A stretch of DNA of 20,411 nt from a virus: IMG/VR virus record IMGVR_UViG_3300035698_014311, positions 1 to 20,411 of that record; one strand, written 5' to 3'. Below are positions 10,641-19,163 of this stretch, piece by piece. Position 1 is the stretch's first letter, and the number at the start of each line of letters is the position of its first letter. The notes under the pieces are model-generated. The model was not told the DNA's origin. It saw only the letters and a list, made by a program, of their open reading frames with translations, and ran no database searches. Position numbers and translations under genes: made by a program.

Positions 10641-11549
10641 TTATTTTTTTAAGTAACCACAATTAAGCGGGTGCCAATCAAATACTCTGGCTCCCAACAT
10701 GTCTGGTGTAAGATTTTTTAATTTCTCATGCATGTAAAAAGGATGATGGCTGATTTTCTCAAGTTTTGTAAATTGAAAATTACACATTCGGTCAACTAGC
10801 ATTTGCCTGATTTTTGGCAAGGCATTATTTTTTACAATCGTCTCTCGCCTCTCGGACATCATTGGATCCTCGTATCTAGCCTTGGCAATGTCAAAATATT
10901 TTCTCAATTTTTCAAGCTCTGCTTTGGTCATGAAAGTAAAATCATAACAATAAAGCTCTGCCCTGGATGGTATTATTAACTGATGATGTTTTGTAAGAGC
11001 CGGACCAAGTGGATAGCCATTTTTGTTTTCCACCTCTGTGATCGCGCTTATAAAATCAACTGTTTCGTAATTAATACCATAGCAAGTCTTCGGGTAGTCT
11101 CTTTTATTTACCAATAAAGGTGATCTGCATTTCTGAAAATATCTGTCAGCTAAAACAAAGTTATATTTCCTGATGCTGATTGCTTTGGGAGGTACTCGCT
11201 TCTTGTCACATTTGTAAATCAATTGTTTAAGGTATTCTGCATGTTCTGGATTAAAAATGTAATCAACGTCAAACTTGAAAGCCCAATCCCCAGTGCAGGC
11301 TTGGTACCCTATATTCAAGCTGACCCCTAGCTGGTCCCAATGCCAATCGTCTGGCCAATATTCATATATTATCTTAAGCTTCTCTGCTCCCCTTAATTTT
11401 TGAATTTCTGCGATCGAGCCGTCATCTTCTGGCGCGCCATTGACAACTACAACCTCATCGCAAAGGTCAAGAAAACTCTGGATGCTCTCTAGGTATGGAT
11501 ATTTCCAGGTCTTCGGATTTTTTATATTGCAGTGTGCTGATAATTTCAT
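10641..11549 (-). CDS. GT-A glycosyltransferase-like protein
   Basis: 302 residues. The N-terminal half has a GT-A nucleotide-sugar fold: SIQSFLDLCDEVVVVNGAPEDD (22-43), LKIIYEYWPDD, LNIGYQACTGDWAFKFDVDYIF (78-99) with a DVD metal-binding motif at 94-96 in the usual place after a conserved helix. The C-terminal half has PSRAELYCYDFTFM and a histidine-containing HHPFYMHEKL segment, which resembles the acceptor-side extension of short GT2-like enzymes. No transmembrane segment, so cytoplasmic. It begins inside the APS kinase stop (ATGA) and is followed 2 nt later by another glycosyltransferase, placing the sulfation genes in the same translational unit as sugar transfer. Confidence 0.8.
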   Translation of the reverse strand: MKLSAHCNIKNPKTWKYPYLESIQSFLDLCDEVVVVNGAPEDDGSIAEIQKLRGAEKLKIIYEYWPDDWHWDQLGVSLNIGYQACTGDWAFKFDVDYIFNPEHAEYLKQLIYKCDKKRVPPKAISIRKYNFVLADRYFQKCRSPLLVNKRDYPKTCYGINYETVDFISAITEVENKNGYPLGPALTKHHQLIIPSRAELYCYDFTFMTKAELEKLRKYFDIAKARYEDPMMSERRETIVKNNALPKIRQMLVDRMCNFQFTKLEKISHHPFYMHEKLKNLTPDMLGARVFDWHPLNCGYLKK

Positions 11550-11902
11550 ACTAACTTCGGATGTTCAAAAGGATATTTTTTTCCTTTTCTACCACCCTCT
11601 ACATAAATAAATTTGCAATCAGTTATTTTTTGTACTTCCCTCCTTAAATTCTTATAGGGACAGATTGTCGATATAATAACCTCGTATCCGCACTCACTCA
11701 TTCTCCTCGCTGTTTCTGCGATATTAATATTCTGCTCCCACCTGTCTAACTTACTAAATCCAAGCTTCACTTTTCTTTTTTCTCTCACTGTATCACCATC
11801 AAGGTGAATAGTTTTTATACTGTTGAATTTAAAACTTTCGTATAAAGCTATAGCTAATGTTGTTTTCCCGGCTCCGGAGTTGCCGACTATCCATGTGATC
11901 AT
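11546..11902 (-). CDS. Compact adenylylsulfate (APS) kinase-like protein
   Basis: 118 residues, against about 180-200 for CysC. It retains the signature motifs: Walker A GNSGAGKTT (7-15), HLDGDTVR (33-40), LGFSKLDRWEQNINIAETAR (47-66), which matches the APS kinase LGFS-x-x-DR-x-EN-x-R-x-x-E pattern, and ISTICPYKNLRREV (77-90), equivalent to the ISPYR region. It then ends soon after the FIYVEGG strand with a short GRKGKKYPFEHPKL tail; the lid and FTG-type region of standard enzymes are missing or reduced. CysC phosphorylates APS at the 3' position to make PAPS, the universal sulfuryl donor. Neighbours are a nucleotidyltransferase and a sulfotransferase. Fold and motifs are strong; activity of the shortened form is inferred. 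Confidence 0.82.
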   Translation of the reverse strand: MITWIVGNSGAGKTTLAIALYESFKFNSIKTIHLDGDTVREKRKVKLGFSKLDRWEQNINIAETARRMSECGYEVIISTICPYKNLRREVQKITDCKFIYVEGGRKGKKYPFEHPKLV

Positions 11903-12231
11903 AATTTTTTTCTTATTTTAGTACCAGAGATTTTTTCAATTTCCTCTGGGAATCTTTTAACTTTATATCCAACATCTCTCCCAACCCATATCTCATCAAA
12001 ATCATTTATTCTCCCAATATCTACTTTGCCGACAAAATTTCTCCAGTATGTTTTTATCATCCAAATTTGGATCATGTCTTTTCTCTCTCTGAGAGAATAT
12101 GGATTGTTTTTATCTTTTTTAGTATCTCGTATTAATATTGTTACATTGCCCTTTTTTAATGCTTCCTCTATTAAAGCTTGATGTCCCTCGTGGAATGGCT
12201 GGAATCTCCCAGCTACTATTATGTTTTTCAT
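11899..12231 (-). CDS. Small HxGH-type nucleotidyltransferase (possible APS-forming enzyme)
   Basis: 110 residues. It has the nucleotidyl-transfer loop GRFQPFHEGHQALIEEAL (8-25), a RDTKKDKNNPYSLRERKDMI segment, a WVGRDVGYKV motif and a C-terminal ISGTKIRKKL (101-110), the ISxTxxR phosphate-binding motif. This places it in the cytidylyltransferase-like superfamily that includes NMN adenylyltransferases, phosphopantetheine adenylyltransferase and ATP sulfurylase. The RTxGISTT motif of glycerol-3-phosphate cytidylyltransferase is absent. ISGT-x-x-R also occurs in ATP sulfurylases, and the neighbours are an APS kinase and a sulfotransferase, so APS synthesis is attractive, but the protein is far shorter than ATP sulfurylase. 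NMN adenylylation remains a serious alternative. It starts one base after the sulfotransferase stop and ends in an ATGA overlap. Confidence 0.78.
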   Translation of the reverse strand: MKNIIVAGRFQPFHEGHQALIEEALKKGNVTILIRDTKKDKNNPYSLRERKDMIQIWMIKTYWRNFVGKVDIGRINDFDEIWVGRDVGYKVKRFPEEIEKISGTKIRKKL

Positions 12232-12232
12232 A

Positions 12233-12817
12233 TCAAAATCTAATTTTTAAATCTTTTTTGTGTCCGACCTGGTTTATAATTAAAGTCTCTAATTGTTTGA
12301 CTCCTAAAAAGTTTTGAATTGTTAATGAAAATTGAGCAGGGAGTACAGTTATCTCTCGGCCCAATGTCATTTCTTCGTATGTTATCTCTAGAAATTCATG
12401 GCCTTTATTATTAAATAAATCATTAACCTGCCGTCTCTTTTTGTCAACAAATTTCTTGTGCCATATCAAGTCCTCGTATTTAAGATCAGTATTTATTTCG
12501 TTTATACATCTCAAATAAGTTCTGCCTGGGTTTCTAATCAAATGGATTACAGTTACGTCCATTCGCTTTAACTGTTCCACTATCTCTGAATTGATCTGAT
12601 TGTATTTAAGGTCAAAGCCTACAATAACCTTGGGGTGTTTATTATAAAAACTCTCAAGGAATACTGGGACCGATTGCTCGGATTTTTCGTACTGATTAAA
12701 TTCTCGGTTATGACAAAAAATCTCATCCGCAAAATATATATCCGGGTGGCTATTCAAAAATGCTCTTAATAAATGTGTACCGCTCCCTTGTTGGGAGATT
12801 AAAACTACTCTGTTCAT
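12233..12817 (-). CDS. PAPS-dependent sulfotransferase-like protein
   Basis: 194 residues with both PAPS-binding signatures. The 5'-phosphosulfate loop is VLISQQGSGTHLLRAFLNSHP (5-25), like the (S/T)-x-x-x-S-G-(S/T)-x-x-L of bacterial and carbohydrate sulfotransferases. The 3'-phosphate site is VTVIHLIRNPGRTYLRCINE (88-107), with the conserved R-(N/D)-P and a following hydroxyl position. A late YEEM and an IQNFLGV segment (167-173) match the LxYEDL and LxxFLG end of the fold. There is no lysine in the PSB loop (Gln-Gln instead of the Arg or Lys often present), which should be checked. Soluble, so probably acts on a cytoplasmic glycan precursor or protein. ATGA overlap with the upstream methyltransferase. 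Confidence 0.83.
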   Translation of the reverse strand: MNRVVLISQQGSGTHLLRAFLNSHPDIYFADEIFCHNREFNQYEKSEQSVPVFLESFYNKHPKVIVGFDLKYNQINSEIVEQLKRMDVTVIHLIRNPGRTYLRCINEINTDLKYEDLIWHKKFVDKKRRQVNDLFNNKGHEFLEITYEEMTLGREITVLPAQFSLTIQNFLGVKQLETLIINQVGHKKDLKIRF

Positions 12818-13251
12818 TTTTTTGGAGACATCCTACAATAAACTTCGTAGGGATTACCTTCATCATTAATTATTTCTTTAAGCTCGATTATATTCCAAGG
12901 TTTGTATCCGTACCACTCAAAAAGATCATCTCGGCGCAGCCAGTCAAACCAGCAAGCAGTAATACATTGGAAGTGGACCGGTTTACTGGCTCCAGTCCAA
13001 AGACCATGCGGGACTTTTATTTCAAAGATTCCATCTGGTTTAATTACCCGGTGACATTCATTCAAGATATTCTGTACGTCTCGCAAATGTTCAAGGACAT
13101 GATTGCTGTTCATAAAATCGACTGTGTTGTCTTTATATGGTAGCTCGTCTTTTTCAAAATCACAAACATGATTAAATCCAAAATAAACTTTGTCTACGTA
13201 GCTGTTAAAATCTGGCAATTTATGTTTTCCGCACCCTAAGCTTACTCTCAT
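12814..13251 (-). CDS. Small class I SAM-dependent methyltransferase
   Basis: 145 residues of the Methyltransf_11 type. Motif I is reduced to VSLGCGKHKLP (3-13) at the very start, as in short glycan-cluster methyltransferases. The acidic strand DFEKDELPYKDNTVDFMNSNHVLEHL carries the LPY-x-D-x-(S/T)-(V/F)-D and LEH motifs, then a post-motif helix and GIFEIKVPH. The C-terminal part is shorter than in most relatives and ends at YEVYCRMSPKK. Likely methylates a sugar or small molecule in the glycan pathway; substrate unknown. Its ATG overlaps the stop of the preceding small ORF as TAATG, and its stop overlaps the sulfotransferase start. Confidence 0.82.
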   Translation of the reverse strand: MRVSLGCGKHKLPDFNSYVDKVYFGFNHVCDFEKDELPYKDNTVDFMNSNHVLEHLRDVQNILNECHRVIKPDGIFEIKVPHGLWTGASKPVHFQCITACWFDWLRRDDLFEWYGYKPWNIIELKEIINDEGNPYEVYCRMSPKK

Positions 13252-13408
13252 TAATTTAAAAATTTAATTTTATTATCTTTGATCTCTAATATATCACCAA
13301 CTGCGAATCTCTGTATATAATGTCTTTGTCCTGCTATCTCTATCTCAATATATTTTGTAATAAACGGACACCACCAATGTCTAGTTATTTTTTTATTTTT
13401 AAAATCAT
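13251..13408 (-). CDS. Small ORF readable only with a -1 shift at an A7 run (programmed, error or mutation)
   Basis: An ATG at 13408 overlaps the radical SAM stop (TAATG), but its frame ends after MILKIKK at a TAA. Directly before that stop is A-AAA-AAA (13394-13388), a classic slippery heptamer. In the -1 frame the reading continues ITRHWWCPFITKYIEIEIAG, then GQRHYIQRFAVGDILEIKDN, ending in a TAA that overlaps the next ATG (TAATG at 13251). The full product would be 52 residues and would fit its neighbours exactly. No start codon precedes the second frame. Either a programmed frameshift, a lost A in a homopolymer (sequence error or phase-variable tract), or a decaying gene. The protein family is not recognised; the second half looks like a small beta-rich domain. 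Confidence 0.5.
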
Positions 13409-14160
13409 TATTTTAATCTTAGGAAATTACAGTCACGGCATAGTGGGAGTTTTTCTCTCCGGATATTAGCCAGCCAATACCTGTATGTTTTTAATAAAGG
13501 TTTATTATATAAATCAATCAAAGATTCCTCCATGATATTCCCGGCATTAACAGTGTAATGATAATCAGCGCAGCATAGAATGACATTTCCTAGATAATTT
13601 ACAAAGGCCTGGGTGCCTCCCTTGGAGCAAATATTTTTAACTACGTCTCCCTCCGGACCGCACTTCACATTCCCGCCCCGGTTGCAAAAAATCTCTTGTA
13701 AATTCTTATCAAATACTGGGCTTAAGCGGACCTCCACACCATTCTCTAAATCCTTAAATCTGGTATAAGTATCCTCGTTGTAACAAGTAATTAAAATCTG
13801 TGTCATGCCTGCATCAAAAAGCTTTTTGATGTCTGTCCTGCTAATCGCGATTCCGTTTGATCCAATAAAAATATTGTTATCCGGAAACATTTTTCTGGTT
13901 TCTTTAATAAAATCTGGTAGCCTAGGATCAAGTGTTGGCTCGTTCATTAAGTAAGGCGAAATTCTCCCAGTATAATTTATTTCCTTAAGGTCTTTCAAAA
14001 TTTTAAAATAAATCTTTTCATCCATCAATTCTTTATTCTTTGGGATAACTGAATTTGGGCATGTCTTACAATTAAGGTTGCAACCATTCAAGGTCTCGAT
14101 CTGGATCGCTTTGAAATTATCGACTTTGTTTAAGTTAATATCTCCTGTTTCAATTTGCAT
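13408..14160 (-). CDS. Radical SAM protein with a SPASM-like C-terminus
   Basis: 250 residues. The canonical CxxxCxxC cluster motif is CNLNCKTC (Cys27, Cys31, Cys34). A TIM-barrel core follows with YLMNEPTLDPRLPDF, FIGSNGIAISRTDI, where GSNG matches the SAM-contacting region, and MTQILITCYNEDTY. The last third has clustered cysteines (NICSKGG, VILCCADYHY, LCRDC near the end) as in SPASM or twitch domains holding a second iron-sulfur cluster. Similar enzymes in surface-polysaccharide loci act on sugars or alkyl chains; here the neighbours are methyltransferases and glycosyltransferases. Substrate unknown. The start overlaps the small HTH ORF by 31 nt; the stop overlaps the next ATG. Confidence 0.85.
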   Translation of the reverse strand: MQIETGDINLNKVDNFKAIQIETLNGCNLNCKTCPNSVIPKNKELMDEKIYFKILKDLKEINYTGRISPYLMNEPTLDPRLPDFIKETRKMFPDNNIFIGSNGIAISRTDIKKLFDAGMTQILITCYNEDTYTRFKDLENGVEVRLSPVFDKNLQEIFCNRGGNVKCGPEGDVVKNICSKGGTQAFVNYLGNVILCCADYHYTVNAGNIMEESLIDLYNKPLLKTYRYWLANIRREKLPLCRDCNFLRLK

Positions 14161-18323: not shown

Positions 18324-18496
18324 AGATATTTTTTAATTTGATTGTCTTGCTCTTTCTTTTTTATTTTATCGATTATTTGTTGTCTGGTGCCGCCATAGCT
18401 TCCACACTCTTTAACTCTGTACTGTTTGTTGCTTCTGTGATTCCTGTGCGCGTAACCCTTAAACATTTCAGCGCTATGATTAATCTTTTTTATCAT
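18320..18496 (-). CDS. 58-residue basic protein of unknown function
   Basis: The frame is open from 18574, but that start is a TTG, and an ATG at 18541 sits only 2 nt from an AAGGAG. I choose the ATG at 18496, which overlaps the deacetylase by 17 nt; the ATG at 18466 is also possible. The chosen product begins MIKKINHSAEMFKGYAHRNH and includes CGSYGGTRQQIIDKIKKKEQ. It is rich in Lys, Arg and His. The C-terminal half is helical. No family recognised; nucleic-acid binding would fit the charge. The stop overlaps the glycosyltransferase ATG as ATGA, which supports it as a real gene. Confidence 0.6.
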   Translation of the reverse strand: MIKKINHSAEMFKGYAHRNHRSNKQYRVKECGSYGGTRQQIIDKIKKKEQDNQIKKYL

Positions 18497-19163
18497 TTCG
18501 GAGTTTCTTTTTCTCTTTTTCGAGTTTTTGTGTGATGTCATATCTCCTTGTAATATATTTAAATAATTCTTCAAGCTGATCCCAAAGTCCGTATTTCTCT
18601 ATCTCCCAGCCGTGGCCCCATATGTGATAGTAATCTCCCGAATCTAGCGCCTGGTCAAATTTCTGTTTTGCATATATGAGCCAGCCTCGTCCCTCATATT
18701 CTTTTCTGTCGGGAAAGACATGGATCGTAGATGCTATTCTAAAACTGTCATCAGGTAAAAAAATGTTACTTATCAATGTTGTCCGGGCTTCTTTAAAGCC
18801 ACAGCTTTTAACAACTTGTATTGTTCTATCATCAAATCTCCCGCGCGGGTAGCAAAAGCTTGTAATTTCTTTTCCGATTATATTTTCAAGCCATTCCTTA
18901 TTGCTCTTGATTTGTTGGTACTGATCATTGGTGGATAAAAATCTCAAATTATTCGGGTGGGAGGTTGTATGGCCTCCGATCTCATATCCCATACAATAAA
19001 GCTTCTTGATCTGATTCTCATCTAAGGAACAAATTGTCGGGATATAAAATATCCCAGGGAGCTTGTATTTATAAAGCAAATTCGCTATTCTAAAATCTTC
19101 CTCGCTCCCATCATCCCAGCTCGTAATTATTCTGATTTCTTTTCCTTTTTTTCTTTTGCCCAT
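18480..19163 (-). CDS. Polysaccharide deacetylase (NodB/CE4)
   Basis: 227 residues with the CE4 motifs in order: SWDDG (15-19; Asp17 base, Asp18 metal), GGHTTSHP (63-70; His65 and His69 metal ligands), FCYPRGRFDD (103-112), and HIWGHGWEIEK (180-190) carrying the late catalytic histidine. All metal-binding residues of an active enzyme are present. CE4 enzymes remove N- or O-acetyl groups from peptidoglycan, chitin-like or other polysaccharides. No signal peptide or membrane segment is seen, so it would act in the cytoplasm or be released by lysis, unlike most family members. The C-terminus is Lys/Glu-rich. It overlaps the upstream helical protein by 37 nt. Confidence 0.9.
   Translation of the reverse strand: MGKRKKGKEIRIITSWDDGSEEDFRIANLLYKYKLPGIFYIPTICSLDENQIKKLYCMGYEIGGHTTSHPNNLRFLSTNDQYQQIKSNKEWLENIIGKEITSFCYPRGRFDDRTIQVVKSCGFKEARTTLISNIFLPDDSFRIASTIHVFPDRKEYEGRGWLIYAKQKFDQALDSGDYYHIWGHGWEIEKYGLWDQLEELFKYITRRYDITQKLEKEKKKLRNDKKD

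Follow-up and report, generated by a model that had tools for sequence, protein, structure and literature searches.

We identified, in a viral genome record, a set of three genes that probably supplies and uses activated sulfate. The window analyzed is one complete IMG/VR virus record, IMGVR_UViG_3300035698_014311, of 20,411 bases, and it encodes a sulfotransferase of 194 amino acids (aa), a 110-aa HxGH nucleotidyltransferase and a 118-aa protein resembling adenosine 5'-phosphosulfate (APS) kinase. Our preferred interpretation, to which we give a probability of roughly 0.72, is that the nucleotidyltransferase is a minimal ATP sulfurylase and its partner a short-lid APS kinase, and that the two jointly provide 3'-phosphoadenosine 5'-phosphosulfate (PAPS) to the sulfotransferase. 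It is built on genes, families, folds, a recurrent pairing and a sulfur context that were observed directly, from which we infer the substrates and the direction of the reactions. The nucleotidyltransferase would convert ATP and sulfate to APS and pyrophosphate in a reversible reaction, and the small kinase would convert APS and ATP to PAPS and ADP. In the phage, the first reaction would run forward, pulled by the kinase, with PAPS passing to the neighboring sulfotransferase. In SAR11 bacteria, the nucleotidyltransferase would run in reverse, releasing ATP and sulfate from APS that APS reductase made from sulfite. Because APS is common to all of these settings (as substrate of APS kinase, as substrate or product of APS reductase and, once converted to PAPS, as donor for sulfotransferases), ATP sulfurylase would be the simplest assignment for the nucleotidyltransferase.

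The genes lie on the minus strand. In the order of transcription, a methyltransferase gene is followed by those for the sulfotransferase, the nucleotidyltransferase, the APS kinase-like protein and a GT-A glycosyltransferase (Table 1). A single base separates the sulfotransferase and nucleotidyltransferase genes, and four-base overlaps are present at the methyltransferase/sulfotransferase, nucleotidyltransferase/kinase and kinase/glycosyltransferase junctions, as expected for translationally coupled genes. The first-pass annotation had described the trio as consecutive genes of a coupled unit with the GT-A gene next; the coordinates and junctions agree with this description, and every motif that it quoted is present in the translations. 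The arrangement was found again in other genomes, and therefore the gene order of the window is not due to chance. The minus strand also carries phage head and packaging genes (capsid, protease, portal and terminase, assigned by reading) and, enclosing the trio, an extended cluster of genes for glycosyltransferases, methyltransferases and related proteins (assigned by reading and Pfam). Since the sulfotransferase is located within this cluster, it probably acts on a sugar or surface polymer, a glycan being a guess from the neighboring glycosyltransferases.

The sulfotransferase scored just under the Pfam cut-off for Sulfotransfer_3 (26.7 bits against 27), and its fold was therefore modeled to decide its identity. 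The AlphaFold2 (AF2) model, built with six viral homologues, had a predicted local distance difference test (pLDDT) score of 84.6, and its best match in the PDB was 4gox (Z 13.1, root-mean-square deviation (rmsd) 3.1, 176 residues). Rows 1-35 of the PDB fold search were sulfotransferases without exception. The model confirms a sulfotransferase fold for the window protein, the identity first proposed from its two putative PAPS sites. In a relative of the window glycosylation cluster (L250/L252, IMGVR_UViG_3300033150_000367), the methyltransferase-sulfotransferase order is shared, and the nucleotidyltransferase, kinase and GT-A genes are absent between the sulfotransferase and the next glycosyltransferase gene, which looks like insertion or loss of a cassette.

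The kinase-like protein was also correctly named. It scored 83.4 bits against Pfam APS_kinase (cut-off 21.1), its nearest PDB sequence is 7yq0 (E 1.1e-18), and the P-loop, DGD and DR substrate motifs are all in place (alignment A10). Its score against the NCBIfam equivalog TIGR00455 (apsK), 87.7 bits, is below the cut-off of 138.7. Viral loci L002 and L256 have the same short-lid form, as do bacteria of the Candidate Phyla Radiation (CPR; alignment A10). Kinases of this kind fall into two motif types: LDGD in the window, CPR bacteria and some viruses, and NADxR in SAR11 and marine phages.

The nucleotidyltransferase matched Pfam CTP_transf_like (40.7 bits, cut-off 21). In profile comparison by hhalign, it aligned with NadM, the archaeal nicotinamide mononucleotide (NMN) adenylyltransferase family, at 99.6% probability (E 2e-24), and it scored below the cut-offs of both the NadM equivalog TIGR01527 (32.5; cut-off 181.2) and PF01747, the single-chain ATP sulfurylase (15.3 bits; cut-off 24.3). 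Against its AF2 model (29 relatives, pLDDT 85.2), ATP sulfurylase 1jhd ranked lower than the nearest folds, with a TMq of 0.54 and a core fold common to both. Profile comparison and fold together place the nucleotidyltransferase, by descent, with NadM and not with ATP sulfurylase; judged by sequence and model, it is a descendant of the NadM family that lost the middle of NadM. Membership in the ATP sulfurylase family was rejected, as the protein has neither the QXRN loop nor a profile match. A minimal ATP sulfurylase of this kind would have evolved from a NadM-like scaffold, and from neither known ATP sulfurylase. Alignment with NadM requires two gaps, and NadM-invariant residues D74, W81, F92 and N99 (numbering of alignment A5) lie in or beside them, the W81 and N99 columns of the middle segment being aligned to gaps. 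A GRDVGY loop, missing from the NadM profile (alignment A5), stands where NadM has NNPLV.

Among 141 distinct homologues, G8, R9, Q11, P12, H14, G16, H17, P44, G84, R85, G88, S102 and R107 are invariant, and N43, V87, R35 and Y89 are conserved in at least 96%. In ATP sulfurylase, the published active site is made up of three loops (QXRN, GRD and GxxKxxD) and the motifs HxxH and SGTxxR (PMC3779200). The small nucleotidyltransferase shares with it both HxxH and SGT/SATxxR, together with the G and R of GRD; of these, SGTxxR is also present in NadM and HxxH is common to all HxGH nucleotidyltransferases. These residues may represent a partial convergence on a small-anion pocket. In the nucleotidyltransferase tree, the window and CPR sequences form a clade apart from those of SAR11 (0.994 support), and the active-site residues are identical in the two clades.

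Relatives of the window nucleotidyltransferase are frequent in viruses: at least 574 related stretches were found by scanning viral contigs. Among 92 distinct viral nucleotidyltransferases, fusion to a P-loop kinase from the window kinase's family is seen in 48, and 35 others have the kinase within two genes; nine have none, and three of these nine start right at the edge of a contig and so have no upstream sequence. The fused protein is about 255-300 aa long with the kinase part first, and constitutes PHROG 10255, annotated merely as 'kinase', which both window proteins match. It is also encoded by five cultured phages of Stenotrophomonas, Xanthomonas and Clavibacter. AMQ65958.1 of Stenotrophomonas phage DLP_6 is a protein of the fused type. 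Pfam analysis of 46 whole viral records (1.68 Mb) detected Sulfotransfer_3 in 13 records, in 11 of which the match lies no more than 2.3 kb from the nucleotidyltransferase (13% expected; p=1.6e-8; distances calculated by hand from listed coordinates). With hidden Markov models made from the neighboring sulfotransferases, all 30 sulfotransferase-bearing loci had one within five genes of the nucleotidyltransferase and none farther away, a count biased by the choice of seeds. Sulfotransferases adjoin kinases of both motif types. The neighborhood search proposed in the first-pass annotation found the trio beyond the window: L256 carries a window-type sulfotransferase, the small nucleotidyltransferase and the small kinase together, in a gene order different from that of the window, and the pair occurs with sulfotransferases in unrelated viruses. 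No relatives were found by a kinase-only pattern search of the viral contigs; the search based on the nucleotidyltransferase was productive. Matches in Klebsiella, Vibrio and other phages were larger NMN adenylyltransferase-Nudix proteins of a different family and were set aside.

Cellular forms are found in CPR bacteria, where the nucleotidyltransferase gene is directly followed by a short-lid APS kinase gene on chromosomes of Peribacteria and relatives. In one CPR class (145 genomes), the full nucleotidyltransferase was detected in eight genomes (88-101 bits), the next matches being partial and NadM-like (63 bits or less). APS kinase was present in 13 of the 145, namely all eight carriers, as the adjacent gene, and five others (p=3e-10). 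Two of these five have fusions of the ATP sulfurylase Sat with APS kinase (Sat-APSK), two have CysD with CysN-CysC, and the fifth kinase is on an unreadable short contig. APS kinase therefore comes with the nucleotidyltransferase or, where readable, with a canonical ATP sulfurylase, which indicates that the nucleotidyltransferase takes the sulfurylase's place in this class. PF01747 was not found in any of the 12 nucleotidyltransferase genomes first examined, nor CysD in any of the 15 searched (both sets include three Pelagibacteraceae). Sulfotransfer_3 was detected in 6 of the 13 APS kinase genomes against 5 of the 132 others (p=5e-5), and a second sulfotransferase type (PKTGG) in four genomes, all of them carriers, near the nucleotidyltransferase in each. 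The genome-contig scan used a six-row alignment, and the pattern GRFQPFHE misses most SAR11 forms (GRWQP[FW]HDGH). Matches in Cyanobium and Synechococcus (NadM-Nudix-like, by reading) and in Uhrbacteria and archaea (NadM-like) were rejected.

SAR11 bacteria have been reported to lack sat and cysDNC (PMC5069961), and aprAB, for APS reductase, is among the SAR11 core genes under the strongest purifying selection, in a pathway that is still called incomplete (PMC12636525). With APS reductase kept and sat and cysDNC reported missing, the fate of APS in SAR11 is unexplained. Whole-genome search of 147 Pelagibacterales genomes located the nucleotidyltransferase in 110, aprA in 111 and both in 102 (Fisher p 2e-15, a value that shared ancestry and genome incompleteness inflate). 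PF01747 was present in just six of the 147; CysD was not searched across this set. The nucleotidyltransferase lies within 2.5 kb of aprA in 38 genomes, in two architectures that are probably two evolutionary events. One, in 32 genomes, is convergent, with the kinase and nucleotidyltransferase facing a 116-aa gene, aprA, aprB and an aprM-like gene (named by position and look only). The other, in six genomes, is an operon-like, same-strand series, NTase-aprM-aprB-aprA (NTase, nucleotidyltransferase). Neither of the two same-strand loci that were examined in full, L206 and L210, has a kinase nearby, so that the nucleotidyltransferase is tied to APS reductase by itself. NCBIfam matches of 996 and 194 bits confirm the identities of aprA and aprB, respectively. 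Elsewhere in SAR11, the nucleotidyltransferase-kinase pair adjoins genes for a Rieske oxygenase, a DmdA-like protein and an SBP56/methanethiol oxidase-like protein. One genome (G051) has two nucleotidyltransferases, one beside Rieske oxygenase, DmdA-like and SBP56-like genes, and the other, a kinase fusion, next to a Sulfotransfer_1 gene within a sugar cluster. The pair occurs with sulfotransferases in Pelagibacteraceae also.

Several observations weigh against the assignment as ATP sulfurylase and APS kinase. The nucleotidyltransferase has no profile homology to ATP sulfurylase (hhalign probability only 8.7%); the QXRN sulfate loop is missing, GRFQPFH occupying its place, as is the GxxKxxD loop; and D86 of the GRD loop varies among homologues in which G84 and R85 are invariant. 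The nearest folds to its model are archaeal NMN adenylyltransferases (1m8g, Z 10.4, rmsd 2.5, 105 residues). The window kinase is without the canonical lid segment (KAR, FTG) between the core and the PFE motif, and SAR11 kinases score just 32-44 bits against APS_kinase. The SAR11 counts are phylogenetically non-independent, and incomplete genomes raise the co-occurrence. The hosts of the cultured phages that carry the fusion should produce APS themselves. Finally, loci L250/L252, L254 and L257 have a window-type sulfotransferase with no pair within about 6 kb, the range searched, which makes the pair an accessory to the sulfotransferase and not a strict requirement. The idea of a sulfation cassette is independently supported by the recurrence of the pair with sulfotransferases in viruses, CPR bacteria and Pelagibacteraceae, although close relatives carry the sulfotransferase without the pair. 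The two activating enzymes are unusually small, as had been stated, one by deletion of the lid and the other at 110 aa; however, the latter is not a reduced ATP sulfurylase by derivation.

The concern that the nucleotidyltransferase might act on NMN was justified as to ancestry. It is unlikely, however, that the protein transfers nucleotides to NMN or another phosphate ester that the kinase phosphorylates, as in NadR and RibF, in a salvage module to which the sulfotransferase neighbors are incidental. Kinase-nucleotidyltransferase fusions of such logic are already known, NadM is the nearest family by both profile and fold, and a second NadM-like match is present in only one of the eight carrier genomes of the CPR class, so that a double role is possible. 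On the other hand, D74, W81, F92 and N99 of NadM fall in or beside segments gapped in the small protein, the part of NadM between the core strands being deleted; its kinase belongs to the APS kinase family (83 bits), and its neighbors are APS reductase, sulfotransferases and methanethiol oxidase. Less probable still is the activation of another small oxyanion, or synthesis of a 3'-phospho-nucleotide diphosphate donor other than PAPS, with the sulfotransferase homologue transferring the group, as in the Campylobacter capsule phosphoramidate pathway. Cj1415, an APS kinase homologue, phosphorylates CDP-phosphoramidate, which illustrates that such homologues can use other nucleotides; the substrate residues of the nucleotidyltransferase are unlike those of ATP sulfurylase, and methyltransferases neighbor the window genes. 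But a glutamine kinase or amidate gene was not recognized in the window by reading, the nucleotidyltransferase is linked to APS reductase in SAR11, and in the CPR class it stands in for canonical ATP sulfurylase beside APS kinase. It is also conceivable, if rather doubtful, that the subfamilies differ, the DGD-type pair of the window, CPR bacteria and some viruses making PAPS and its NADxR-type counterpart in SAR11 and marine phages having another function. The kinase motif types and the well-supported separation of the nucleotidyltransferase clades fit such a division, whereas the shared active-site residues, the sulfotransferases beside both types and the APS reductase beside the NADxR type do not.

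Other genes near these loci were also recorded. A radical S-adenosylmethionine/SPASM protein is encoded in the glycan gene cluster of the window (13408-14160), with a similar protein near the sulfotransferase of L255, and a polysaccharide deacetylase-like (NodB) protein, assigned by reading, lies at the upstream end of the cluster (18480-19163). Runs of small 2-oxoglutarate oxygenase-like proteins surround the kinase-nucleotidyltransferase pair in marine phage loci L008, L010, L017, L022 and L033. In the cultured Stenotrophomonas phage Bhz60 (L050, 1776-6974), the fused gene is located by NADAR, MazG-like and cysteine dioxygenase genes, a context of which sulfation gives no account. In SAR11 apr clusters, the gene immediately after aprA encodes a conserved 116-aa protein that has no Pfam match (L230, 3186-3533; L206, 11243-11590). 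Three Pelagibacteraceae genomes and one CPR genome have, next to the module, a gene read as pyruvate kinase-like (L139, 11208-12275; L143, 10840-11820; L145, 10338-11696; L136, 10831-12270).

Table 1. Positions in the window of the trio, its flanking genes and the motifs discussed.
Feature	Position	Strand	Evidence
Methyltransferase, upstream of sulfotransferase	12814..13251	-	Methyltransf_11, 46.9 bits
Sulfotransferase, 194 aa	12233..12817	-	Pfam Sulfotransfer_3, E 7.8e-6; AF2 model; PDB fold match
Putative 5'-phosphosulfate loop SQQGSGTHLL	12767..12796	-	Read from translation; Q10, S12, G13 invariant in 7 homologues
Putative 3'-phosphate motif IHLIRNPGRT	12518..12547	-	Read from translation; I91, R95 invariant in 7 homologues
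Small HxGH nucleotidyltransferase, proposed minimal ATP sulfurylase, 110 aa	11899..12231	-	CTP_transf_like, 40.7 bits
HxGH nucleotide-binding motif, residues 14-17	12181..12192	-	H14, G16, H17 100% in 141 homologues
GRD loop, residues 84-86 within GRDVGY	11974..11982	-	G84, R85, G88 100%; V87 99%; Y89 96% (141 homologues)
SGTKIR motif, residues 102-107	11911..11928	-	S102, R107 100% in 141 homologues
Small APS kinase-like protein, short-lid form, 118 aa	11546..11902	-	Pfam APS_kinase, 83.4 bits
P-loop GNSGAGKTT	11858..11884	-	Sequence; alignments A7, A10
Kinase LDGD motif	11792..11803	-	L34, D35, G36, D37 invariant in A10, including two canonical APS kinases
GT-A glycosyltransferase, 302 aa	10641..11549	-	Pfam Glycos_transf_2, 26.8 bits

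For the sat step that sulfite oxidation lacks in SAR11, which are very abundant ocean bacteria, the nucleotidyltransferase is a definite candidate that can be tested. We lean, somewhat less firmly than for the window genes, towards a wider proposal: that these proteins are a third, unrecognized ATP sulfurylase family of about 105-130 aa on the NMN adenylyltransferase scaffold, which would be widespread in SAR11 and complete the oxidation of sulfite to sulfate with a gain of ATP, and which hundreds of viruses would carry with a small APS kinase to make PAPS for sulfotransferases. We found no open-access paper that describes an alternative or a minimal ATP sulfurylase. If the proposal is correct, a bare Rossmann core suffices for an ATP sulfurylase, PAPS is produced autonomously by many viruses and by some CPR bacteria, and the 'cysC' reported as a viral auxiliary gene may in many cases be one of the two parts of a PAPS module.

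Each component has a counterpart among known systems. Sat (PF01747) resembles the nucleotidyltransferase in its HxxH core, GRD-like loop, SGTxxR motif, core fold and partnership with APS kinase or APS reductase, but is about 340-400 aa long, and the 110-aa protein has no QXRN, GxxKxxD, extra domains or profile homology to it. CysD/CysN catalyze the reaction proposed here for the nucleotidyltransferase, which in the CPR class is found in genomes without CysDN; the two proteins, a PP-loop enzyme (CysD) and a GTPase (CysN), are unrelated to it. NadM (TIGR01527) shares the GRFQPFHxGH, NP[FY] and SGTxIR motifs and the nearest fold, whereas the small protein is missing two middle segments and has the GR loop in place of NNPLV. 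APS kinase (CysC, PF01583) has the P-loop, LDGD, VR, GFS-DR and PFE motifs of the 118-aa kinase, from which the equivalent of the lid segment KGLYAKARxGEIKNFTG is deleted. PAPS synthase and Sat-APSK fusions unite sulfurylase and APS kinase functions on one polypeptide, as proposed for the viral fusions; the latter, however, are about 255-300 aa long, begin with the kinase and have an unrelated sulfurylase part. PHROG 10255 contains the window pair's family in its fused form, under an annotation that assigns no function.

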